This document shows positions 17,979-36,412 of a stretch of 64,000 bases of DNA, piece by piece. A program made the translations under genes and the position numbers. Under the pieces are notes generated by a model. It ran no database searches. It was not told where the DNA came from and saw only the letters and a program-made list of their open reading frames with translations. Source of the DNA: Chthoniobacterales bacterium (GTDB lineage Bacteria > Verrucomicrobiota > Verrucomicrobiia > Chthoniobacterales > DYNR01); assembly GCA_026418675.1 (NCBI GenBank), contig JAOAAX010000003.1, forward strand, positions 1 to 64,000, in the 5' to 3' direction. The stretch's first letter is position 1. The number at the start of each line of letters is the position of its first letter.

Positions 17979-20900
17979 TTAGCAAATTAGAAATTCGCCT
18001 TTCCATTCTTTTTGGAGAATTTTGCAACTTTTTCCGTCGGGAGAGATTTCAACTTCTTTTGCTTTAGAGAATAGAGATTCACCTTCCTGAAGGTTAGGCT
18101 GGAAGCGAATTTCTTTTGCCCGAAAAGAAGCGGGTGTTTTGATTGTGAAGTGGATTTTTTTATCTATTTTTTGGTAGGAGAGAGAAATTTTTCCGAATCG
18201 TGTGGGACAATTTTTTAGGCAAACTCCTTCTTCGATCCACTTGGGAGGAATGCCGTGACCGATAATTATGTGTTTATTTTCTCTTTCTTGGAGGTAAAGG
18301 CTTCGGATAGCAAGGAAGAACTCTGCTGCGATCCAGGCGTGGGGCAAATCCCCGATATGGGCGGGGGTTCTAGGATTGTTCCAAGTGATTTCTGGCCACT
18401 GGTTCCAGGCGATGGGGAGGCGTCTATCGAGCATCCAGAGGAGGACTTCCTGTGCTTCTTGCCAAAGGCCCAAACGCGCTAAAGCACTTACGATTCTAAT
18501 TTCGTAAGCGGTAGCGTTTTTCCATGTGTGTGGATTTTGTCGCTGTTGGAGGCCTAGGAGATATTTCCTGAAAGTGGATTTTGCAGCTTCGGCGCCGATT
18601 TGATCCGAAAAATCCAAGAGTGCTACTGCGCAAGCGAGTGAAGTTGGATCAAAGTCAGCCCACTCTATGGAAGCTGGCAAAAAATCGAGGTTTTTATCTC
18701 TTTTAAGGGTGTAGATTGCGGTGATTGTTGAATGAAGAAGTTCAGATGCTGCTTCGTTCCAACGCTCAGAGAGTTTTACTTTTTGGAAAGCGTTGGCAAG
18801 TTCTGCGGCGGCTAGGAGACCACGAGCAGCCCAAAAGTCGTCCCAAAAGGAATGGACCGGTTGGGAAAGGTAACCTTCATGGCTTACCGAGGCTGGCAAG
18901 AGGCCGCTGAAAATGGGTGTTGATTCTGTTTCTCGGATTTGGGTTATGTATTCTGCGGTCCGTTCTACCGCGGGCCAGATTTCTTGGATTAAGTGTCTTT
19001 TTGCTCCAAAGAGGAGGGCCTCTCGTGCGGCCCAAAGGAATTGGCCGTGGCTGTCGTGTTCTACAATCGGGTCTGGTTTATCCGTGTCGAACACAGCGGG
19101 GACATGTCCGTCAAGGCGGACATGCTTAGCCAAAAAGAGAACCAAATTTAGGAGAGGAGTAGTGTGGTTTGCTCTAGCTAAAGCGGCTCCCATAACAGTT
19201 GCGTCTCTTGTCCACAAGCGTGTATAGCGGCGAGGGCCAGGTTGAAGAGCGATTCCATTGCGACAGGCGAGGATGTGACCGATGCAAGTTCGCGAGCAAC
19301 GGAGGACATCTCGTTGGGGGCTTTGTTTTGGAAGTTTTTTGGAGGGAGAGGGGATAGACCGGAATGCGCTACGCCATTGCTTAAAAAAATTACCGTTCTG
19401 CTGTTTATTGTTGGGGTGGTGCTGGATGATGTTTTTTTGAGGTAACGGGATCAAAGCAAAGAATTCAGCGCTGTGCTCAACTTGCCAATAGGCGATTCCA
19501 CTGAGGAACCCGGAAAGGTCTTGACAGGATTGCTGTAAATCTAACTGGGAAATATCGCAATTTAGGAATCCCTGTGAGGTATGCCATTCAAGGCCGCCGA
19601 GTTTGTGAGGTTGAGGTGAGAAAATGACTCTTATGGTTCCTAGTTCAAGGGTGTTGCCGAGTCTTTGTATGCGCCGGATGGCACTGAAGCCTCCCATTCT
19701 ACGGAAACTTTGCCATGGAGGGACTAATTGCCATGGGCGGATGAGGATGGCAAAACCGAGGCTTTCATGAATTTTCGATAGCTCAATTTTCCAAGTTATC
19801 CTTAAAAACTCTTCTTGATTGTAGATCAAAAAGTCAACATGTGTGGACAATTTCCACTCTTTGGTTTTTCTGAGAACAGTAGGGAGGGGTGCACCGCTGG
19901 GAGGGAGTCGGGGGATAATTTGGCAACCGGACCATCCCGTCCAGTTTTCTCCATTGAATATAAAAGGTTCCAATAATGGGGAGGCTTCGATTGGCTCTAC
20001 GCTTCCATTTTCCTCTAACAGAGCGCGAACAGCACCTGAAGGGCGTGCGACAGGTGTCCAGTAAGTTTGTTCTCTGAGCCAATAGCGGGTGAAAGAGCCC
20101 CGTGGAGCAAGTTGAGCTGCAGAATGAAGAAACTCGTTAGCAGAATCTAAGACTTGCGGGAGGAAATGAATCGAAAGCAAACCACATGCCTTTCCCTGTT
20201 GGGGGTGAACAATGAGTTTTATGGCTTCGCAGCTTTTGCGGGGAAGGTAAATTGTTTGATGGGAGGGGAGATTTCCCTTAATAGAGTAGAACGTTTTCCA
20301 GGGTTCATTTTGGTCCCGAGATTCGATGGTAATTTGAGATGGAACCATATTGGGGAGCCAAGAGAGGACAATACCACCGAAGCGCACCCATTTATTGAAA
20401 TTTATTTCGAGCTCTGCTTTTGGAGTGGCTGGTGGAACGAGCCAGGAGGGTAAATTTTCGTTCGTTTTAGTCGGGAGGAAGGTTTGGCCTTCAAGCTGTA
20501 AGGGAGGAGTTTGTGCTTGAAACAGGTTGGCTACGTAAATTTTGCAACCAGGGGTTGTTTGAAAATTGGCTTCTGGCGTTGGGAATTCATCAACAAAATC
20601 GAGGGGATAAATTTCAAAGAAACCCGCTCCTCCATTCCCTGCGACAACCACAAATTCGACTGCTTCTATTTCACCTGGTGAGCCACCTCCGGCAGGTCCC
20701 CAAGCAAAAGGGAGCTGCAGCTCAGTTATTGTGAATCTTTTTTTTGACAGTTTCGATTTTGGGCCAGGCAGAACGGCGCGCCAGACGTTTTGTCCGCCTT
20801 TCCCGACAAGCTTGAACTCAATTTTATTTTCTGTAGGGGAACCGAGAACGTCGAATTTCAGGCAAAATGCTTGCGGCATTAATATGGGGCGTTCGCAGCG

Positions 20901-21065
20901 ATATGCTACGAAGCCAAGTTCGTTGCAAAAATCGTAGCGGAAACATTTTCCGTCGCCATTAGCGGATTGTGATTCTGTGCCTTTGGCCAATCCTGAGCCG
21001 AAAACCTGCCATCGGGAGTTGTGCGAAAAAAAATCAAAAAAAACATTTTTATCCATTTTTTCCAT
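17979..21065 (-). CDS. Multidomain (alpha/alpha)6-barrel glycosidase-like protein
   Basis: 1028 residues, fully open. Residues about 10-165 form a jelly-roll-like carbohydrate-binding segment, and about 215-310 resembles a discoidin (F5/8) domain (INFNKWVRFGGIVLSWLP). A beta domain follows. From about 600 a helical domain has ALQPGPRRYTRLWTRDATVM, DGHVPAVFDTDKPDPIVEHDS and HSFWDDFWAARGLLAAAELA, typical of (alpha/alpha)6-barrel glycosidases with Asp and Glu in the clefts. It has no signal peptide. It is the last gene of the - strand polysaccharide run, downstream of five ruined genes. It is intact while those are dead, so it either has its own promoter or has kept a separate function. Family assignment is by fold pattern only. 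Confidence 0.7.
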   Translation of the reverse strand: MEKMDKNVFFDFFSHNSRWQVFGSGLAKGTESQSANGDGKCFRYDFCNELGFVAYRCERPILMPQAFCLKFDVLGSPTENKIEFKLVGKGGQNVWRAVLPGPKSKLSKKRFTITELQLPFAWGPAGGGSPGEIEAVEFVVVAGNGGAGFFEIYPLDFVDEFPTPEANFQTTPGCKIYVANLFQAQTPPLQLEGQTFLPTKTNENLPSWLVPPATPKAELEINFNKWVRFGGIVLSWLPNMVPSQITIESRDQNEPWKTFYSIKGNLPSHQTIYLPRKSCEAIKLIVHPQQGKACGLLSIHFLPQVLDSANEFLHSAAQLAPRGSFTRYWLREQTYWTPVARPSGAVRALLEENGSVEPIEASPLLEPFIFNGENWTGWSGCQIIPRLPPSGAPLPTVLRKTKEWKLSTHVDFLIYNQEEFLRITWKIELSKIHESLGFAILIRPWQLVPPWQSFRRMGGFSAIRRIQRLGNTLELGTIRVIFSPQPHKLGGLEWHTSQGFLNCDISQLDLQQSCQDLSGFLSGIAYWQVEHSAEFFALIPLPQKNIIQHHPNNKQQNGNFFKQWRSAFRSIPSPSKKLPKQSPQRDVLRCSRTCIGHILACRNGIALQPGPRRYTRLWTRDATVMGAALARANHTTPLLNLVLFLAKHVRLDGHVPAVFDTDKPDPIVEHDSHGQFLWAAREALLFGAKRHLIQEIWPAVERTAEYITQIRETESTPIFSGLLPASVSHEGYLSQPVHSFWDDFWAARGLLAAAELANAFQKVKLSERWNEAASELLHSTITAIYTLKRDKNLDFLPASIEWADFDPTSLACAVALLDFSDQIGAEAAKSTFRKYLLGLQQRQNPHTWKNATAYEIRIVSALARLGLWQEAQEVLLWMLDRRLPIAWNQWPEITWNNPRTPAHIGDLPHAWIAAEFFLAIRSLYLQERENKHIIIGHGIPPKWIEEGVCLKNCPTRFGKISLSYQKIDKKIHFTIKTPASFRAKEIRFQPNLQEGESLFSKAKEVEISPDGKSCKILQKEWKGEFLIC

Positions 21066-21089: not shown

Positions 21090-22426
21090 TTATGATCGGA
21101 CTGTCTTTAATTTTAGCAGGATGAAGATAGTTGCTATGAAGCAGGGGAGGGCTGAGAGGAAGCCAACAGCGATAGCCTCGGTTCCGAGACTAATTTTTGC
21201 AAGCCAATGATTGTGAACCTCGATAGCTAAAAAAGTGTAGGCACCAAAAAAAGAGTATAAATTCCGCTTTGATGAAGGAGGAGGTATCTGCTGACGGGCA
21301 ACCAAACAATGGCTACAGTATGAGCCATAAGATAACTGAAAGACAAACAAAGTAGAAATCCTTTGATGCCGAGGAGGGAATAGGCTGGAGTTGCAAGTCC
21401 ATAGCTAGCTGTAACGAGTAAGTTCATAACGAAAAGGGATTTTGAATGACCGACAGCTAATGGTGCGTGTTCGACTGAACACAGAAGGATTTGAGCCCAG
21501 ATGTTGATCGCGACCCAGCGGGAAATTTCGCTGGCTGATACGTAACGTGGATCGTAGAAGCGACTGAAGAAGATTGGAGCGAAAATTGCAAAAGGCGAGC
21601 AGGTTACACCGCCGGCTAAAAAGCACAAGTTGGCTTGCACGGTAACATTTTTGAACAAGGGTTTGGGTCGCGTTTGGTAACGAGAAAGGATGGGGAATAT
21701 GACGATGTTGGCTAAGCGTGTTGCTATTTCGAATGCCAGACGGGCAAAATTGACGGAGATGCGGTAAATGCCTAGTTCGGCCATAGTGAGAAGCTTGCCG
21801 AGAAGGAAGCGGTCGAGGCTATTTGCCAAGAAGGAGAGGATTGTGCTGAGAAAAATCCACACGCCGAAAGAGGTGAGCTCGCGTGCTGAAGTTGGGTTCC
21901 AGCCGAAGGAATCTTTTTATGAAGATTAAAAAGATGGCTTAAAAACATTTTGAGTGAGCTTGAGAGGATCCACCCACCAACGAGGACCCAAACGGTGGGG
22001 TAGAGCCATGCCCAGATGAGTTGGATGGTGAGAGCGATGAATTGAGGTACTAACTCTAATAGAGTTAATAATCCAAATTTCATCTGTCGGTTTAGTGTAT
22101 GAACGCTGATGGAGTTAAAGCCGCTAATGGCGGCAGAAATGCCTACGACGAGTAAGATTGTGAGAAGTTGACTGCCAAGTGGGTTGCGCTGGCTGAAGAA
22201 GACTGAGACGGGCCAAGCGATCGCGCAGCTTACAAACCAAAGGAAGAAAGCACGGATGACTTGGATGGTGCATGTCGACAAGGACGAGGGTCATGAGGCC
22301 AAAGGCAGCGGGAAATAGGAAGTGAGCTAGGAGGAGATTACTAATAAAGCGGAAGAGCTGTGATGTGCCATAGCCGAATGTAGTCCATACAGAACCGGAT
22401 ATGGCTTACTTGCGAACTTCGCTCAT
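21090..22426 (-). pseudogene. Wzx-like polysaccharide flippase, ruined
   Basis: Pieces in three frames together give a flippase of the oligosaccharide/MATE-like family. The N-terminus MSEVRK is followed by an in-frame TAA (22406-22408), then AISGSVWTTFGYGTSQLFR. A frame change near 22280 comes at a point where about 30 residues seem missing; the new frame continues TIQVIRAFFLWFVSCAIAWP. A second change near 21870 leads into FLANSLDRFLLGKLLTMAELG, and a third near 21250, in a run of seven A, leads to the C-terminal helices. The parent would have moved lipid-linked repeat units across the inner membrane. It lies seven bases after the polymerase remnant, consistent with a former operon. Confidence 0.85.
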
Positions 22427-22432
22427 GAAAGT

Positions 22433-23819
22433 TCAGATAACTCGGGGAGTGGAAATAGGAATCGTTGGATTATGTTGGAGATGTTGGACTGAAGTAGGAT
22501 TAGGAGAAAGAGAAATAAGGAAAGAGACCAACCCTCCCATAGCGAGGGTGATGACGGGGTTATACATGGCAATAAAAAGGTTATCAATCATGGTTAAGCC
22601 CATGAGAGTTACAAAGCCCATTACTGGACTCCACTGCGGTTTGGCCCAAAGACGAGTATGATATCTTTTAAGAAAGAGAAAAGCCGGTAGTAAGTAGGAG
22701 AGGGATAAAGAAACAAGACCGAATAATCCAAATTTACCGAACGTTAGAATCCACATACCATCCGGGACGGATATGTATTCGCCTTTTTCGTTTGTGACAT
22801 AGGATCGTTGGAAGCCTCCCCATCCTAGCCAGATGCGTTGTTTTGCTTTTTCGACAAGTAAGGTTTCGTTTAAGAGACGGAATGCTAAAGAGTCTGCACG
22901 ATCTTTACTTCCGGTAGCTTTTTCTGCAGCCTCGACGAGGTTTTGGCCGTCCCATGCCCTCGTGGAGCGAAGATGCATGTAGAGGATTGGAAGCAAAAGC
23001 AATAAGAGGAGAGCCAAGCAGGAGCGAAAAAACTTTGCTGTGAGGAAGGTAACTAAGCCGACCAAGAGGAGAAAAATAAAACCTGAGGAGCGGAGGGAGA
23101 ATGTGACCAATCTTAAGAGTAGAAGAGTTGGGAGAAACGGCATTGGGATTAGGGGCAATTTGTTTCTCAGGGTTTTGCTTAGGAAGAGGATCCACCCGAG
23201 GAGTGTTCCTGCCATCATCCAGATAGCAAATTCCACCCCCTGTGTCATAAAGACGGAGGGGCGGTAGCCGCCGTCGCGTTTGGTTTGACTGAAGTCGCTA
23301 TGGGAATAAGAGCCGTAGAGTGGGATGAGTAGGATGGGACTCCTGACCATTTCTTAGATGGCCAATGGTGCAAGAGCCAAAGCGCCGAGGAACATAGCAA
23401 TGGCAAGTATTTTCATGGCTTCGAAACTGCCGAAGTAGAGACGCCCGACCAGATAGGGCATGCCGTAGAGGAAAATTTGCGTGATAACAACAGCTCTGCC
23501 GTCGTAAGCGCCGAAGTCATTGTCAACGGATGTGAAAAATGGGCAAACGACTTAAACAAGCATGGGAAAATTGAGTGGAGAGAGTCTGAGAGATTTAAAG
23601 ATTTTCCTATCGAAAATTAGGACGGAGATAAGGACAACTAGTGCGAGAGCGCTGACCTTGGTGGTACTTGGGATAACGGGCAAATCGAATTTAGCCTGTG
23701 TAAGAAAACTCCAACCGATTATCAAGGTTGCTGCAGCGGCGACAACAGGCTTGTAACGTTTGAAGAGGGAAAATGCCATTGGGATGAAACCCCATGGTCA
23801 AGTAGGCGAGTGGGGTCAT
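22433..23819 (-). pseudogene. O-antigen polymerase/ligase-like membrane protein, ruined
   Basis: The reading frame is nearly continuous. From ATG 23819 (MTPLAYLTM) a one-base insertion near 23782 shifts into MAFSLFKRYKPVV. That frame is then broken by two in-frame TAA codons (23552-23554 and 23354-23356). Between and after them it still reads good family sequence: CPFFTSVDNDFGAYDGRA, then GGYRPSVFMTQGVEFAIWM, and later NEKGEYISVPDGMWILTFG, with about ten membrane helices in total. The parent type is a Wzy/WaaL-like enzyme that polymerises or ligates polysaccharide repeats. Only three simple lesions are seen, so this is one of the less decayed members of the cluster. Confidence 0.88.
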
Positions 23820-26104
23820 CCTTGGCATAAGAAGACAGAATGGTGAATTTAATATTACTTATTTTTTTGGGGGGAAAAGGTTTTAGAGATAAATCTGTCA
23901 GAAATTTCGTGATTTTCTGTTGGAAAGTTTTTGAGGTGATTTGCTGTGTCAGTGATATGAAATTCATAGAAGACTTGAAGAGGCGAGAAAGGAAAACCAG
24001 AGTTTGAAGAGGTTGATAGAAATTAAGGACAGCGGTGAGGGCTGGTTTGTTGCAAGCGGAGAGGCAATCTACGGCCTTGCGGACGTCTGAGAGATAAGCG
24101 GTATTCTGTTTAGCAATGATGACAGCAGCATCGGATTTTACCGCTAATTCATGAGAAATGTCGGATAGCCAAATAGTTCAGCAATCGACGATAACAAGAT
24201 CGTAACTTCCGCGAGCGGATAGGAGAAATTTGTTTATTGTGGGCCGGATGGCATCTGTTGGGGTTTCAGGAATCCAGGGGAGCAGGTCACAAGGGCTATG
24301 GGGGTCTGGTATTTTTGCAGCCCAAGGGCCTGTTGGCTGGAGAGTGGATTGAGGGATTCCGGCAAGTTTTTGCATAGCTGGAAGAGGGGTTGGAAGCTCT
24401 ACGGCCAGGATGCGTAGGCCGTGTGCAGCTCAACCTCTGCTTATGGCAATGGAAAGAGAAGTAGTTCTTGCGCTAGGATGTGCACCGACAAGTGAGAAAA
24501 CTCTGGCATTTGCGCGTTGATTTTCCAGCAATAAACGGATAGCTAAGTCGCGAATAGGGATGAAGAAATTATGGTCCGTATTAAGCGGAATGGAGTCGGC
24601 TTCTTTGCCGTTGGGAAGGAGAGCCGGGATTGGCTTGCAGCCGGGTCCTCCGATTGTAGCGGCGAATTCCTTCCGGATGCATATTCTTGGGTCGAGGAAA
24701 TCGAATATGAGGCAAATAGTGAAGGGGAGGCCGATGGATAGGAAAACAGCGATATAAGAGTGAGGGTTTTTCCTTTGGTGAAGTGGGGCGTTCGGGTTGG
24801 AGGGCGTATTGTTCGATGAGGACAGGGAGCGGAGCTTTAGCCTCCATGGTTGTGTCGTAAATACGGTTTTCGATTGAGAAAAGACGTTCGCAGAATCTTT
24901 GCAGACCGAATGAGTAATTGGAGGTGCGGAATATTGCTTCAGAAATTTTATAGGCTTCGTTTTGGGTGCGGTTCAGCTCAGTTTGCAGGGTATCGAGGGA
25001 GGCTTGAGCAGGGTCGGTTGCGCATTGAGCACGGATGATGGCTTCTTCGAGTTCGTAGTCACGTTTTTGGGAGAAGATTTGGCGCATGTTCGAAGCGACT
25101 TTTTTTTTGAATTTTTCGAGGTATTCGATCATGGATGTCATGCGGTTATCGACATTTTTGCGGTGGGGGTTATCTGTAGTGAGTCCATCAATAGTTTTTC
25201 GAAGCTCTTGGGTTTCGGCGTAGCTCCATTGATCCATTTAGTTGATACCGAGCAATTTGCGACTTCTGCGTCTGCAAAAGGTTCAATACTAAGTTTTAGA
25301 ATTTGTTCTTTGTTTTTTGGGCTTGCTGGAGTTGGGCGAGTAGGGACAGTGCGTTAGTTTCGGCGTTCCAGTAGAGATTATGGAGGAGGTTAAGTTTTTC
25401 TAAATGGCTTTGATAATTGGGGTTGAGAAAGACAGAGGAGCCAAGTTCGTTGCTCATTTGTGCAAGAGCATTGGCTTCTTCGGAGATGCGGGTGAGTTTG
25501 CGGTCGCGTTCTGCGCTGAGGAAGTTGAGCTGTGCGCGGTATTGGCCTTCTTGCTCTTACTCGAGAGTATCGAGGAAGGTTTCCAGAACGGTATTGAGAA
25601 TTTTTGCTAGGCCGTAGGCCTCTCCTGCTTGGATTGAGACTTTGATGATGTAAGTTCTGGCGACTTCTTGAGCTTTAAGGCGAGAGTAGAGCCGGAAGAC
25701 AGCTTTGTCGGATTCTCCAAGACCGCGAAGGAAGGAGGGGCGTTCGGAATCGGGCAGTTTGTGTAGTGCTTCGCGGAGTATTTTAGGGTTTGTAAGCCGG
25801 AGGATGAGAGTGCGGGAGAACCATGCGACCTCGCCTTGGATTAGGTCGCGTTTTCGGCCTATAATGGTTGGGGCTTTGCTGGGGTTAATAAGGATGCGTG
25901 CATCCATTGAGTAAATGGGTTGTTAGAATGGTTTGAGGAGGAGTAAAAGGAAAAGAGAGGGTATGCAAACGATGAGAAGCAAAGGGGAACGGCGAAAAAA
26001 AAAAAGGCGATTATTTGAAAGGGTTTGCGTTTTTTTGCGTCAGCCAAATTTCCGCGTTGGACGACTGGCCTTTGGTTGGGATTGCTTGGGTTGTTTATGT
26101 TCAC
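23820..26104 (-). pseudogene. Wzc-like chain-length regulator and tyrosine kinase, ruined
   Basis: Start at ATG 26104. A frameshift in a T-rich run near 26005 leads to the first membrane helix, followed by TAA (25923-25925). The Wzz domain reads MDARILINPSKAPTIIG and on to a second TAA (25557-25559). Coiled-coil sequence continues with frame changes near 25250 and 24755. Then come the second helix and the kinase part, with TGA at 24430-24432 and 24178-24180. The Walker A segment reads GAHPSARTTS, lacking the Gly-Lys of GxxxxGK(T/S). Walker B survives as YDLVIVDC. The parent would control capsule or EPS chain length by tyrosine autophosphorylation. The 3' limit is uncertain: the last open frame runs on to 23722, past the polymerase start. 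Confidence 0.88.
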
Positions 26105-26115
26105 AACCGGTAAAG

Positions 26116-27110
26116 TTAAGGCGTAGAGCCTGCGATTGCTTCCATGAGGCCTACATTGGAGATAGCTCCGGTGGCGAGGACGAAAATTGTGAAGAAGGGT
26201 TGTATTTGGGTGAGGGAGTAATTTACGCGCGCGAGATCCGTTGGTGGGACCAAAATGAGGTCGCCATCTTTAAGAACATAATTTTCTCGGGAATCTCCTT
26301 TTGAAGTAATCTTGGCCATATCAATTCGTTTGATGACGCCTTTGCCTTCGGAGGTGCGGACGATGAGTATGTCGTTAACATTTGCGTTTTTGGTTTGGCC
26401 GCTACATGACATGATAGCATCGAGGAGTGTCATTTGGAGCTTAGGGTGAGGACAGCTGGCTTGATACTTTGCCAAGGACGTAAGCTAATTAGTCCTCACT
26501 TTGTGGAATGAAGATAACATCGCCATTTCGCAATTTTGCGTTTGGAGTCATGTTGCCATTTTCCAGCAACTCGCGGAGGTCATTCCATATAACTAAATTA
26601 TCGCCGCGAACAATCATGCAGCGGCTGAGGAAGGTTTTTTTGGTATCGAGAGGCAGTGCACCGGAAAGGGAGAGAGCTTCAAGGAGTTTTTATTTTTTTT
26701 CCTTGAAAATTAACAGCTCTTTTATTTGCTCCTCGTCACAGGAAAAAGACGCGGTTACTGTTGTGTTCGCGCATGATGATGGTGACTTCGGGATTTTCGT
26801 AAAAGGAGCTTAGTTTATCTCTGGCGAGGTTTGTGAGTTTTTCTACGGTCATATCTTGGACGTGGATGATCCCAATACGGGGTAGAGAGGCATTGCCATC
26901 GGGAGAGATGATGACGTTATTTTCGGTTGCATCAGGGCAGCCACGAACAAGGAAGCTATAGACATCGCTAGGGACGATGCGGTAACGATTGTCGAGTTTT
27001 GCGGATTCTGCTTGGACAGTTCTTTCTGAAGCGAATTGTTTTGCTGATGTCAGGAGTTCGGTTTTGAAGAATTCGCCTGGTGCAGGTCGTGGATTTTTTG
27101 GAATCTGTTG
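26116..27110 (-). pseudogene. Wza-like polysaccharide export protein, ruined
   Basis: The Poly_export domain is clear: NRYRIVPSDVYSFLVRG, SPDGNASLPRIGIIHVQDMT and FYENPEVTIIMREHNSNRVFFL, followed by an in-frame TGA (26736-26738) where a Gly is expected. A frameshift near 26695, in a run of A/T, leads to LLEALSLSGALPLDTKKTF (an SLBB segment) and RNGDVIFIPQSED, then TAA (26489-26491). Another frameshift near 26470 leads to the last SLBB part, KLQMTLLDAIMSCSGQ, and a C-terminal membrane helix. The signal peptide is not recognisable; the 5' end merges with the truncated GT2 remnant, pointing to a deletion at that junction. The parent forms the outer-membrane export channel. Confidence 0.88.
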
Positions 27111-27129
27111 TCAACTTTTTGTGGGAATG

Positions 27130-27675
27130 GAGCGAAGACTCCTTGACGCGGAGTTTTGCAATCTAGGAGAAAACTCGCGAAGTTACCGATTTCCAGGAAG
27201 CATTTGGTTCTGTAAGGGTCATACCGACGGACATCTCATCGCCGCATTTTTCGCTTATAAGATGGCCGTTTTGTTCAAAATAAGGTTTGCCGCTTCAAGT
27301 CCCTAGAAAGGGGTTTTGGCGTATGCGGTAGATGAGGATTTCGAAGTAACGGGGTGGGATATCGAGATCGAGGTCGAATTTGCAGAGAAATTCGAAGTTG
27401 TTGAGATGGACGGATTGGAGGCCAGTATAGAAAGCGTCCACAACACGCGGGCCAACGGCACGTTTGCCGCGGTCTTGGCGGCGGATTATCTGAATCCAGG
27501 GAATTTTGTTTGAGTATTCTTCGAGGGTTTGTGGTGTTTCGTCTTTTGAACCGTCATTGACGATAATCTAAAGTTTGGGCAAGCAAGTTTGGCGGGGGAC
27601 ACTCTCGATGCAGCGAGGGGCGTAATGTGATTCATCGCGGCAAGGTGTAATGAGGATTTAATTATCTGTTGATTG
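27130..27675 (-). pseudogene. GT2 glycosyltransferase, truncated and ruined
   Basis: Only the N-terminal part remains. It reads ILITPCRDESHYAPRCIESV, then IIVNDGSKDETPQTLEEYS with the GT-A nucleotide-binding Asp, and FEFLCKFDLDLDIPPRYFE with the DxD-like cluster. Stops lie at 27658-27660 (TAA), 27568-27570 (TAG, where Trp is usual) and 27295-27297 (TGA, where Cys is usual). A frame change near 27215 then yields YRTKCFLEIGNF. Roughly the C-terminal 150 residues expected of the family are missing, and the frame runs into the start of the Wza-like remnant. It is 10-20 bases from the end of the intact GT4 gene, so it was the second gene of the former operon. Confidence 0.85.
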
Positions 27676-27685
27676 CTTAATGAAG

Positions 27686-28924
27686 TTATTGGACTGGGGA
27701 CAATTCATTAGGGGTGGACTGAAGGAAACGTGCTTTTAGGTTAGCAAGGTTTGTAGCTGAGGAAAACTGAGCGAGGACTTTTCTCCAACCATTGATAGCA
27801 AGTTGGTTGCGCAAGTCTTCGTTTTGTGCGAGATGGAGGATGGAGTTGGCGAGGGAGGTAGGGTCATCTGGAGGAACGAGCCAACCAGAAACTTTATCTT
27901 CGACTAGTTCTGTGATTGTTGGGAGGTTGCCAGCGATGACGCAAACGCCAGCGGCCATTGCTTCCATAAGAGCGACGGGGATTCCGTCGCGGTCGCCGTC
28001 GTTTGCAATTTTACAAGGGAGGACGAAGAGATCACAATTTGCGAGGAGCTGAGGGATGGTGCTGTGATTTACAGCTCCCAAGAATTCGACTGAGAGGCCC
28101 TGGGCTAACTGCTGCAAATAGGGGAGTTCGGGGCCATCGCCAGCAATTCTAATAGATAAAGGAAAATTTTTTTCTGAGAGAGCTTTTGCGGCTTTGAGGA
28201 GGACATCGAAACCTTTTTTAGGGATGAGTCTGCCGATGGCGAGGATTTGGAAGCGTTCCTGAGTTGTTCGAGGTTTTGGAGGGTTTGATGGGACATCCAC
28301 GCCACAACGGATAATGGGGTAATCGGACTCTGGGCGATTGTGGATATTTTGGTAAAAAGATTGGTGCCAGTGGCTTATTGCTACGACGAATTTTGCGCGA
28401 ATGAGCTTTTCTTTGAGCAAGGAGCGTTTGCGGAATAGGTCGGCTGCATGTCCTGTAAAACTGAAGGGAATGCGAAGGGCGTTGGCTGCATACATTGCGA
28501 TTGTTGCGGAAGAATGTGCGAAATGGGCGTGGATGTGTGTTGGAGCGGATTGGCGGAGGCGCCATGCTAAAGCGAGTGCTGCGAGGCACTGCGGGTAGAG
28601 TTTGAAGCGTTTGAAAGGAGTTAAGTCGGAAGCGAGTAGGATGTCGCGGAGAGTCAATCCATAGGTTAACCAAGCCTGAATGGGATGAGTGATTTCGAAT
28701 AGAAGGGCGTGGCGGAGGAGAGCTTCCCAACCGTTGGTGAATATGGTAATGGTTTCCTTGGCTAGCTGGTCGGTAGCGGGTGAACCGAGGTCGGATTCTG
28801 GAGTGTAAAGAGAAGCGGTAAGGATTTTTAGGCCTAGTTCGCGGAGGCCGAGAATTTCGCGATAAACGAAAGTTTCGGAACGTTTGGGGAGGATAGGAGC
28901 TACATAGAGGATTTTCTGCTCCAT
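27686..28924 (-). CDS. GT4-family glycosyltransferase
   Basis: 412 residues, fully open. It has a GT-B fold with an N-terminal domain starting KILYVAPILPKRSETFVYREI and a His-rich acceptor region (THIHAHFAHSSATIAMYAA). The C-terminal nucleotide-sugar domain has LAIGRLIPKKGFDVLLKA, IAGDGPELPYLQQLA and the EX7E block EAMAAGVCVIAGNLPTITELVE. It resembles WcaL/ExoL-type enzymes of colanic acid and EPS synthesis. It is the promoter-proximal gene of the - strand polysaccharide run, and every gene right after it is dead. It may therefore act on a different glycan or be waiting to decay. Pyruvate kinase lies 47 bases upstream. Confidence 0.9.
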   Translation of the reverse strand: MEQKILYVAPILPKRSETFVYREILGLRELGLKILTASLYTPESDLGSPATDQLAKETITIFTNGWEALLRHALLFEITHPIQAWLTYGLTLRDILLASDLTPFKRFKLYPQCLAALALAWRLRQSAPTHIHAHFAHSSATIAMYAANALRIPFSFTGHAADLFRKRSLLKEKLIRAKFVVAISHWHQSFYQNIHNRPESDYPIIRCGVDVPSNPPKPRTTQERFQILAIGRLIPKKGFDVLLKAAKALSEKNFPLSIRIAGDGPELPYLQQLAQGLSVEFLGAVNHSTIPQLLANCDLFVLPCKIANDGDRDGIPVALMEAMAAGVCVIAGNLPTITELVEDKVSGWLVPPDDPTSLANSILHLAQNEDLRNQLAINGWRKVLAQFSSATNLANLKARFLQSTPNELSPVQ

Positions 28925-28971: not shown

Positions 28972-30399
28972 TTAGAGGACGATGAGTTCGATTCGTTCGT
29001 TGGCTGTTGGGCTATAGTGGGTTTTTCCAAAGACGAGGAGGACTTCTTTTGCCGGGATGTTGAGTTGTTGCATGAGTTTGGTGGTAAATTCGTTCCAGTT
29101 ATTGGGCAAAGAATTGACGAAGAGAGGGAAAACTCCGTAGGAGAGGCAGAGTTGTTGGAGGGCGGTTTCTTGATTGCCGAGAGCTATTATCCAGGATTTG
29201 AGCCTGTGGCGTGCGATAGCACGAGCAGTCTGGCCGGAATAGGTTGGGACGAGGACGGCCTGGCAGTCTTCGACAGCCAGGGTGTGCTCGACGAGGAGAG
29301 CTCGCCGGGTGCGGACTGTTTCTTGGGAGGTGGGCAAAGAGAGTTGAGGTGTTAATGTGTAGTTGTGTTCGCGGTAAAATTCCACTTCCTTCGCGATTTT
29401 TGCTAGCATTTGAACGGATTCGACTGGGAAGTTGCCGGATGCGGATTCTGCGGAGAGCATGACACAGTCTGTACCGTCGAGGATGGCATTGGCGACGTCT
29501 GTGGCTTCGGCGCGAGTTGGGATGCGGCTGGAAGTCATGGATTCGAGCATTTGGGTGGCTGTGATGATGGGTTTGGCCATGCTGCGTGCTTTGGAGATAA
29601 GATTTTTTTGGAGGACAGCGATACGCTCGATGGGGACTTCGATGCCGAGGTCGCCACGGGCAACCATGATGCCGTCGGCTTCTTTTAGGATTTCGTCAAT
29701 TTTTTCGAGAGCGAGGATTCTTTCGATTTTAGCGATGATGAGAGGGGAAGCACCAAGTTTGGTTGCTGCAGCTCTGACAGCGCGGATGTCGTCTGCAGAC
29801 TCCACAAATGACTGACTTACGATTTCGACCCCGTTACGGAGAGCGAATTCGAGGCATGTTTGGTCGTGATCGGTAAAGGCACTAATACCGAGGGGGATTT
29901 GTGGGAGGTTGATGCCTTTGCGTGTACTGATTGGGCCACCGACTATGACTTTGCAATGGACGTCGTTGCGATCAACGGAAATGACTTCTAACTGGACGAG
30001 GCCATCGTTAATGAAGATTTTGTCACCAGGATGGATGACTTGTGGGAGCTTTTTGAATGTAGTTGAGGCGCGATGATTATCGCCGATGATTTCGTCTGTA
30101 GTTATGGTGAAATTGTTACCGGGGACAAGCTCGACAGGGCTGTTGGCAATTTCGCCGAGACGTATTTTCGGGCCAGGAAGGTCTGCCAGGATAGCGAGAC
30201 GAACCCCTGTTTTTTGTGAGGCCTGACGGAGAAGATGGATATGATGTGCGTGTTGTTCGAAGTTGCCGTGGGAGAAATTGAGGCGGGCAACGCTCATTCC
30301 AGCGAGGAGCATTTTTTCGAGTATTTCTGGGGAGGAGGAGGAGGGGCCAATTGTGGCGACAATTTTTGTTTTGCAAGGAGGTAGTTTGAGTGTGTTCAC
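28972..30399 (-). CDS. pyk: Pyruvate kinase
   Basis: 475 residues. It converts phosphoenolpyruvate and ADP to pyruvate and ATP at the end of glycolysis. Motifs: KIVATIGPSSSSPEILEKM at the N-terminus, RLNFSHG (substrate and metal site), ADLPGPKIRLGEI before the B domain, and the signature IIAKIERILALEKIDEIL followed by ADGIMVARGDLGIEVP (catalytic Lys, Glu and Asp). ITATQMLESM and ESASGNFPVESV follow. The C-terminal domain is complete. The family usually has KIEN at the signature; here it is KIER, a small deviation. The start ATG has an A-rich leader; about 190 non-coding AT-rich bases separate it from the ABC permease gene upstream. Confidence 0.96.
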   Translation of the reverse strand: MNTLKLPPCKTKIVATIGPSSSSPEILEKMLLAGMSVARLNFSHGNFEQHAHHIHLLRQASQKTGVRLAILADLPGPKIRLGEIANSPVELVPGNNFTITTDEIIGDNHRASTTFKKLPQVIHPGDKIFINDGLVQLEVISVDRNDVHCKVIVGGPISTRKGINLPQIPLGISAFTDHDQTCLEFALRNGVEIVSQSFVESADDIRAVRAAATKLGASPLIIAKIERILALEKIDEILKEADGIMVARGDLGIEVPIERIAVLQKNLISKARSMAKPIITATQMLESMTSSRIPTRAEATDVANAILDGTDCVMLSAESASGNFPVESVQMLAKIAKEVEFYREHNYTLTPQLSLPTSQETVRTRRALLVEHTLAVEDCQAVLVPTYSGQTARAIARHRLKSWIIALGNQETALQQLCLSYGVFPLFVNSLPNNWNEFTTKLMQQLNIPAKEVLLVFGKTHYSPTANERIELIVL

Positions 30400-34161: not shown

Positions 34162-35475
34162 CTATTGGGAGTTTGATTTTTGGAGAAAGGAAAGAGTTTG
34201 AAAGAAGGATGGGTAGGAGGTGGCGATGCAGGCGGTATTGCGAATTGTGGTTTGGCCGGAGGCGAAGAGTCCGGCGATAGCGAAAGCCATGGCGATGCGG
34301 TGGTCGCCGTAGCTGTCGATTTGAGCGGCTTTGAGTTTTTTAGAGCCTGTGATGATGAGGCCGTCGTGAGTTTTTTGGACATCTACATCCATTATTTTGA
34401 GGTTATTTGCAATAGCGGCGAGGCGGTCAGTTTCTTTGACGCGGAGTTCAGCAGCATCAGAGATTGTTGTGGTTCCTTCAGCAAGTGCGGCGGCGATGGA
34501 GAGGATGGGAATTTCGTCAATTACGTTTGGGATTTCAGGACCGCTGATTGTGGTTGCTTGGAGATGGGAGCCGTGGACTTCGATGGTGCCTGAAGGTTCA
34601 GCGGAGTTTGAGGATTGGACGTATTCGCGGATGGAAGCACCCATGCGGATGAGGACGCGGAGGAAGCCTGTGCGAGTTGGGTTGAGGCCCACATTGCGGA
34701 CGATGAGGTGAGAATTGGGGTTGGCTGCAGCTGCGACGATCCAAAAAGCGGCACTGGAAATGTCGCCCGGGATGGAGATGTCGGAGGATTCAAGCTTGGA
34801 ACCGCCGGTGAGAGATATTTCGCCATTGAAGGTGTTGATGGGAACTTGGAAGTGACGGAGCATCCGCTCGGTGTGGTCGCGGGAGGGTATTTTTTCGATG
34901 ACAGTGGTTCTGCCTTTCGCGGAGAGAGCGGCGAGGAGAATGGCACTTTTGACCTGAGCGCTTGGGATGGGGAGTTGGTAGCGGATAGCTTGGAGTGGGA
35001 GTGATCGGCCTTGGATGTGGAGTGGTGGTGTGTTGCGTTCTCCGGATGCTTTGAGAGAAGCTCCCATGAGGGAAAGTGGTGTGATGATGCGTTCCATGGG
35101 GCGACGAGAGAGTGAATCGTCGCCGATGAGAGTGGAGCTGAAAGGGCGGGCCGCTAATATGCCGGCCAAGAGGCGCATAGTTGTTCCGGAGTTACCGCAA
35201 TCAATTGGGGAATCGGGTGGGAGGAGATTGCCGCCCTGGCCGTGGACGATGAGGGTAGATGGTTCTGGGTTTTCGATATGTATGCCCATTTTTTTGAAGG
35301 CATTGGCAGTGGCGAGGCAGTCTTCGGAGGGGAGGAAATTTTGGATATGGCAGGTTCCGTTAGAGATAGCGGATAGCATGACGGCGCGGTGGGAGATGCT
35401 TTTGTCGCCCGGGACAGTTATTTCTGCTTCGATTGCCGGTAGGGGGTGGATTGAGATGGGATCAGGTATTTTCAT
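34162..35475 (-). CDS. aroA: 3-phosphoshikimate 1-carboxyvinyltransferase (EPSP synthase)
   Basis: 437 residues, the sixth step of the shikimate pathway, joining phosphoenolpyruvate to shikimate 3-phosphate. The family blocks are all present: GDKSISHRAVMLSAISNG at about 23-40, DCGNSGTTMRLLAGILAA (usual LGNAGTAMR variant region), RPMERIITPLSLMGA, the RVKETDRLAAIANNL motif at about 355, and DHRIAMAFAIAGL near the end. Sequence such as GNSG instead of GNAG is seen in class II-like enzymes, but I do not assign glyphosate tolerance. The ATG overlaps the end of tyrA by 14 bases, so the two are coupled. Confidence 0.96.
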   Translation of the reverse strand: MKIPDPISIHPLPAIEAEITVPGDKSISHRAVMLSAISNGTCHIQNFLPSEDCLATANAFKKMGIHIENPEPSTLIVHGQGGNLLPPDSPIDCGNSGTTMRLLAGILAARPFSSTLIGDDSLSRRPMERIITPLSLMGASLKASGERNTPPLHIQGRSLPLQAIRYQLPIPSAQVKSAILLAALSAKGRTTVIEKIPSRDHTERMLRHFQVPINTFNGEISLTGGSKLESSDISIPGDISSAAFWIVAAAANPNSHLIVRNVGLNPTRTGFLRVLIRMGASIREYVQSSNSAEPSGTIEVHGSHLQATTISGPEIPNVIDEIPILSIAAALAEGTTTISDAAELRVKETDRLAAIANNLKIMDVDVQKTHDGLIITGSKKLKAAQIDSYGDHRIAMAFAIAGLFASGQTTIRNTACIATSYPSFFQTLSFLQKSNSQ

Positions 35476-36412
35476 TTGAAGGATTTTGGGGTGAATGGGA
35501 GGAGTAAGGAAGAGGGGTGCTGGGTTGAGTTGTTTGGTTAATTTTTCTGCGGATTTCTGCGGCTTGGCTGAGGAGGGAAAGGAGGGAGTCGGCGTTTGGT
35601 TCTGTCAAAGCTTTTTGGAAGAGCTGGAGTTGCTGGATGAGGGAGTTGAGGGAATTGAGGACGGCGGTTTTGTTGAGGAGGAGGATGTCGCGCCAGAGTT
35701 CTGGTGGGCCGAGAGCGACGCGGGTTGAATCGCGGTAGCCGGGGCCAGCGAATTGCTGGGAAGCGGCGGTGGCATTGAGGACGATGGCGGCGGCGGTGAG
35801 GTGAGGGATGTGGCTGATGTGAGCGACGATTTGGTCGTGTTCTTCCGGGGAGCAAAGGGTGGTTTTGCATCCAAGGAATTGCCAGAAGTTGGCGACGTTT
35901 TGGAGAGTGATGGGGGAGGAGTGAGGTGTTGGGGTAAGGAAGCAGACAGCGTTTTGGAAGAGGTCTGGGCGGGCGTTGGCGAAGCCTTTTTTTTCTGAAC
36001 CTGCCATGGGGTGGGATCCTAAGTAACGGGAGCCAAGGATTCTCTCTAATATTGGAACGAGAGGTCCCTTGACGCTACCAACATCAGTGACCCACGTATT
36101 TTCAAGGATATGTTTCGAAATTTGGGCTGAAATTTCCTCCATAAATGGGATGGGGCAACAGAGGATAATTCCTGAAGCTGAATGGACGGATTGAAGGAGG
36201 TCAGTGGAGATGAGTGTTTTAGGGTGGGACTCAGGAAGTGCAGCGAGGTGAGAGGAAATGAGGTTGAGGGAGGAGGGATTAGGAGACCAGAGATGGATAG
36301 TGCCTTGGAAGCCTCTTTCCCGGAGAGCGAGGAGAATGGAACCACCGATAAGGCCGGGGCTCAGGATTGCGATGGGGGATGTAGGCGGAGAGGGGGTGGG
36401 TGAGCAGTTCAG
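35462..36412 (-). CDS. tyrA: Prephenate dehydrogenase, with no canonical start codon
   Basis: About 316 residues if read from CTG 36412. The enzyme oxidises prephenate (or arogenate) for tyrosine synthesis. The Rossmann start is [17 protein letters not shown], where the first Gly of GxGxxG is Ser. Further blocks are [31 protein letters not shown] and FVxP-type [12 protein letters not shown], then [14 protein letters not shown] and [11 protein letters not shown]. In this frame there is no ATG, GTG or TTG before the Rossmann motif, or for at least 35 codons upstream. The first ATG (36142) would remove 90 residues, including the whole nucleotide-binding loop. CTG 36410-36412 overlaps the stop of the upstream lipoprotein gene, which would allow coupled initiation. 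Confidence 0.88.

Follow-up and report, generated by a model that had tools for sequence, protein, structure and literature searches.

Remnants of polysaccharide genes and their neighbours

The window analysed here is the first 64 kb of contig C64 (154,675 bases), which belongs to an assembly of 2.34 Mb in 131 contigs with 94% completeness; all lesion counts given below rest on this one assembly, representing one genome of the genus. Between positions 21090 and 27675 stop codons crowd all three minus-strand frames, and recognisable protein blocks hop from one frame to another. Mapping of orthologues from four relatives (G001 of the same family, and G066, G053 and G059 of the same order) revealed here remnants of GT2, Wza, Wzc-like, Wzy and Wzx genes following each other on the minus strand from 27657 to 21093, which confirmed the gene content and order proposed in a preliminary description of this DNA. 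Owing to the frameshifts, most of the dead genes escaped detection when translations of single frames, with stops written as X, were scanned directly against Pfam; lesions were therefore counted by frameshift-aware protein-to-DNA alignment to the intact orthologues of G001 and G066, in which no internal stops are present. The features concerned are as follows.

28972-30399, same strand as GT4 and 47 nt from its start: pyruvate kinase, named from its sequence
27686-28924, minus strand: GT4 glycosyltransferase, 412 aa (Pfam Glycos_transf_1, 7.7e-35)
27179-27657, minus strand: GT2 glycosyltransferase pseudogene, 68.8% identity to residues 22-182 of the 322-aa G001 gene
26134-27169, minus strand: wza (Poly_export/SLBB) pseudogene, 53-54% identity to G001/G066
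23878-26089, minus strand: wzc-like co-polymerase pseudogene, 48.5-50.9% identity to the intact 747-752-aa genes of G066/G001
22514-23819, minus strand: wzy-like polymerase pseudogene, 53-54% identity to the intact 466-aa genes of G001/G066
21093-22426, minus strand: wzx-like flippase pseudogene, PF13440 matches, 52.6% identity to the intact 480-aa G001 gene
17979-21065, minus strand: 1028-aa glycosidase-like protein, fully open, with a weak TIGR01577 (oligosaccharide amylase) match and an F5/8 type C stretch

Amino-acid identity of the window remnants to the intact genes of relatives ranges from 48.5 to 69%, and at 51-69% identity with tblastn E values down to 4e-131 the matches are not due to chance. 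The alignments yielded exactly 12 in-frame stops (two in GT2, two in Wza, five in Wzc, two in Wzy and one in Wzx), comprising all three kinds of stop codon, and 11 firm frameshifts seen with both references plus two uncertain ones (Wza, about 27080; Wzy, about 23792), so that the earlier count of at least twelve stops and about nine frameshifts turned out to be right; lesion density in the dead genes of the window amounts to 3.7 per kb. GT2 is interrupted by stops at 27570 and 27297 and by a frameshift near 27216, and its C-terminal part of ~140 codons is gone. The wza remnant retains a PF02563 match at 26772-26993 (E 2.1e-13) along with stops at 26738 and 26491 and firm frameshifts near 26690, 26464 and 26435, its start being missing or changed past recognition. 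Stops of the wzc-like gene lie at 25925, 25559, 25240, 24432 and 24180, and its frameshifts near 26003, 25317, 25255 and 24777, while wzy carries stops at 23554 and 23356 and the single uncertain frameshift near the gene start. In wzx the stop at 22408 precedes the stretch aligned with G066 and is visible with the G001 reference only; frameshifts are located near 22270, 21918 and 21250, the first of them being a frame change combined with a 30-codon deletion. Thus the deletions noted previously are also real.

Both genes bordering the remnants are open, as had been stated. GT4 aligns with the G001 and G066 orthologues at 48.5-52.5% identity over 396 residues with no stops and no frameshifts, and since it occupies the same position in four relatives it is a genuine member of the cluster, the sole one free of lesions in this genome. 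The 1028-residue gene was also considered as a cluster edge and rejected: it was found in one of the 38 relatives searched (G011, 35% identity), where its neighbours are unrelated to the cluster, a more distant match occurs in a Kiritimatiellae contig, and in no relative seen does it adjoin the polysaccharide genes. The idea that the edges of the unit survive therefore holds for GT4, whereas the glycosidase-like gene is an unrelated neighbour.

Two further peculiarities were observed on the same contig. An ORF-poor stretch follows rsfS at C64:142.9-144.7 kb (L066) and includes an OmpA-domain remnant, and a prephenate dehydrogenase-like gene in the window (35462-36142, minus strand) has its N-terminal Rossmann part (GLIGGS) open in frame upstream to about 36400 with no ATG, GTG or TTG start before it, implying either an unusual start codon or a lesion.

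Intact clusters in relatives and the second dead block

The Wzy and Wzx remnants were searched against 57 and 97 relatives at the order level, respectively. Uninterrupted orthologues of both were found in G001 and G053, and of Wzx also in G066, G092 and G059; strong Wzx matches being limited to five of these 97 genomes, the pathway has a patchy distribution in the order. In G066 the genes follow as GT2b - GT4b - GT2up - hexapeptide acyltransferase - GT4 - GT2 - Wza - Wzc-like - Wzy, with Wzx on a separate contig. G001 has the same order as far as Wzc on its contig C253 (one stop is reported in its acyltransferase match), and Wzy - Wzx on C423. In G059 and G053 the row extends over GT2up, acyltransferase, GT4, GT2, Wza, Wzc, Wzy and Wzx to a WecG gene, which in G059 carries a STAS domain; an extra gene of opposite strand, GT2-like judging from its sequence only, is inserted between Wzc and Wzy in both, and GT4 and GT2 are fused in one open frame in G053. 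WecG-STAS adjoins Wzx in these two genomes only; the contigs available for G001 and G066 show no such adjacency.

Upstream of GT4 in the genome studied, pyruvate kinase stands where the relatives have the acyltransferase and glycosyltransferases. The upstream glycosyltransferase of the relatives was found broken on another contig, within a second block of remnants:

C41, about 20.8-25.5 kb (L080:4811-9476): remnants of WecG-STAS, GT2b, GT4b and GT2up

This block has 5 stops, about 18 frameshifts and deletions, and is flanked by an argininosuccinate synthase-like gene on one side and by ordinary downstream genes on the other. A hexapeptide acyltransferase of the cluster type was not found in a search of the whole genome. 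Thus the ancestral locus is spread here over two contigs, C41 (205 kb) and C64 (155 kb). Of its ten remaining genes, nine are pseudogenes residing in two unlinked loci, a pattern that speaks against a local fault of the assembly and in favour of a pathway lost as a unit. The preliminary description was right in recognising a dead unit and underestimated its size, the loss being pathway-wide rather than local. Judging from their contiguity in relatives, the two halves would have served the synthesis of one polymer.

Type of the ancestral pathway

Domain content of the remnants and of their intact counterparts specifies the kind of machinery affected. The flippase family PF13440 is detected both in the Wzx remnant (3.8e-11) and in the intact G001 gene (2.9e-48), and PF02563 is recognised in the wza remnant and, together with SLBB, in the gene of G001. 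The intact G001 polymerase gene matches Wzy_C (PF04932) with 6.8e-4, under the cut-off, its size and position fitting this assignment, and the co-polymerase gene of the same genome matches Wzz (PF02706) with 6.5e-4, also under the cut-off. The Walker A motif GxxxxGK[ST] was not found in the Wzc-like protein of G001 (L061:9376-11628) or in its orthologues from G053 and G059; though intact, the Wzc-like genes of all four relatives, G066 included, have a kinase domain without the Walker A lysine. Since even these relatives lack this residue, the Wzc-like protein of the cluster probably acts as a co-polymerase whose kinase domain has degenerated and not as a Wzc kinase, and its family looks like one of pseudokinases. 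The initiating sugar-phosphate transferase (PF02397) gave no match in the window and none in the cluster segments read; two uninterrupted copies are present elsewhere in the genome (C41:181.8 kb and C57:5.8 kb).

The assortment, with its putative Wzy and co-polymerase, resembles the Myxococcus EPS locus, where Wzx, Wzy, Wza, co-polymerase and glycosyltransferases are also gathered in one cluster, and GT4 matches EpsE (NF041876) with 2.8e-52, scoring 178 of 400 bits and thus staying under the curated cut-off. The differences from this locus are the co-polymerase without Walker A lysine and the lack of an initiating transferase in the cluster segments read.

Relaxed constraint and age of the decay

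Since saturation of synonymous sites is to be expected when proteins are only about 50% identical, replacement of invariant residues was assessed instead of Ka/Ks, taking as invariant the positions identical in G066, G053 and G059. In the five dead genes of the window 210 of 780 such residues (26.9%) are replaced, as compared to 81 of 894 (9.1%) in the same genes of G001 (p = 4e-22) and to 21 of 150 (14.0%) in GT4 (p = 6e-4), and for GT2up on C41 the corresponding values are 26/112 here versus 7/114 in G001. Wzy alone, though without any certain internal frameshift, shows 54 replacements over 182 positions, and the signal is therefore no alignment artefact arising at frameshifts. Relaxed selection over one functional unit, which had been suggested from the pattern of lesions, is thus supported. 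When neutral mutation was simulated on the 2086 codons in frame, 12 stops had accumulated once divergence per site reached about 5-8%, the value varying with the mutation model. A comparable figure, near 7%, follows by our own arithmetic from the excess of about 15% in replaced invariant residues, if ~3/4 of random changes are taken as amino-acid changing. The decay thus amounts to roughly 5-8% neutral divergence.

Origin of the lesions and fate of the locus

Taken together, the observations make us highly confident that the region is what remains, in decayed form, of the second half of a Wzx/Wzy-type exopolysaccharide locus ancestral in this bacterial order, which was split and in which nine of the ten remaining genes died, presumably after the polymer was no longer needed. 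The ancestral order would have been GT2b - GT4b - GT2up - acyltransferase - GT4 - GT2 - Wza - Wzc-like - Wzy - Wzx, with WecG after Wzx as in two relatives. The locus would then have been divided between the places now found on C41 and C64, and the acyltransferase gene lost; once the polymer ceased to be needed, which is the presumed trigger, nine of the ten remaining genes would have turned into pseudogenes via point mutations, small indels and few larger deletions, GT4 ending up directly behind pyruvate kinase on the same strand and without lesions.

General erosion, with the cluster being just one of many dead regions in a decaying genome, might be brought to mind by the genome size of 2.34 Mb, smaller than in most relatives searched, and by other small decayed stretches, such as the OmpA-domain remnant (C64:144.0-144.3 kb) and a methyltransferase remnant on C86; yet 91-95% of the sequence inspected consists of long ORFs, and the two longest segments poor in ORFs, of about 2.3 and 2.7 kb, fall in the two halves of this pathway, which renders such an explanation improbable. 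We assign a still lower probability to sequencing or assembly error, that is, to a low-quality stretch making intact genes seem broken. Several frameshifts do lie at or near homopolymer runs, but 12 in-frame stops and large deletions are not what homopolymer errors produce, the flanking genes, 412, 475 and 1028 codons long, form uninterrupted reading frames, and 91% of the 155-kb contig is occupied by long ORFs. Moreover, a second locus of this pathway is broken as well, and the replaced invariant residues point to lost constraint. All this is in line with the initial doubt that random errors could produce this pattern. Programmed recoding, by which stops and frameshifts would be read through and the proteins made, is hardly conceivable, as no supporting point was found and the aligned genes of relatives share neither stops nor frameshifts, all three stop codons are represented among the stops, two genes have lost parts of their sequence and invariant residues are lost at a high rate.

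Within the preferred reading of a split and decayed exopolysaccharide locus, the survival of GT4 deserves separate consideration. At the lesion density of its neighbours, the probability of zero lesions in this gene is about 0.013, or 0.10 if stops alone are counted, and on these grounds GT4 has probably either been retained by selection or followed a different schedule of decay from the rest, a conclusion that is suggestive only; alternatively, it could merely be the last gene to die. A more elaborate scenario, which we put forward tentatively and hold to be rather doubtful, supposes that both loci died in about the same period and that GT4 was spared by the rearrangement placing it behind pyruvate kinase, where it would have joined a new operon and served another glycan.

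Surface polysaccharide genes still present

Other loci of the genome encode potential components of surface polysaccharide synthesis and export:

C75, L006:12254-16357: short Wza (191 aa), Wzc with a normal P-loop (733 aa) and a BBP2 beta-barrel gene, uninterrupted and placed together
C86:74000-93999 (L064): O-antigen-like cluster of low GC (0.37) with nucleotide-sugar enzymes, several glycosyltransferases and large Wzx-like and Wzy-like proteins
C64:139.1-141.0 kb: O-antigen-ligase-like protein, 653 aa, uninterrupted

The Wzc of C75 possesses the Walker A motif, unlike the Wzc-like family of the dead cluster; no Wzx or Wzy lies alongside, and the set may be an export set pairing Wza with a separate porin. 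For C86 the putative Wzx-like and Wzy-like assignments follow from protein length, context and a weak Wzy_C match. The methyltransferase remnant of this cluster lies near L064:8.0-8.8 kb, and a GT9-like gene is apparently split at L064:6000-6993; perhaps the cluster was acquired and is itself partly decaying. With uninterrupted genes of the Wzx/Wzy-like, Wza/Wzc and ligase-like types at these other places, the cell is not bare. The suggestion that the organism had lost that coat thus concerns one polymer, and not necessarily the whole coat.

Known parallels and significance

Pathway-wide pseudogenisation is a known kind of event, to which the genome studied here adds a heavy example involving two loci. 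One inactivated polysaccharide cluster already known is the cryptic O-antigen cluster of Yersinia pestis (as cited in PMC3417512), which is similar in that a surface-polysaccharide cluster was inactivated by mutations in its own genes while an intact counterpart exists in relatives; the present case differs by nine dead genes, two unlinked loci, more advanced decay and an unrelated organism. In Hamiltonella defensa of whitefly the O-antigen was lost, with one ligase-like gene inactivated and wzy missing (PMC5322557), so that here too the assembly genes of one surface polymer are inactivated or missing in one lineage and other sugar genes stay, whereas in the case described above nearly every pathway gene is still recognisable as a pseudogene. 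A literature search on Verrucomicrobia found nothing specific on polysaccharide pathway loss of this type. The region therefore offers a clean and roughly datable dismantling of a complete surface-polysaccharide pathway with the surviving GT4 as an internal control, and could serve to quantify how the demise of a unit propagates among its components and to tell which glycosyltransferases work in more than one pathway; in general, losing a surface polymer may affect phage sensitivity and attachment.
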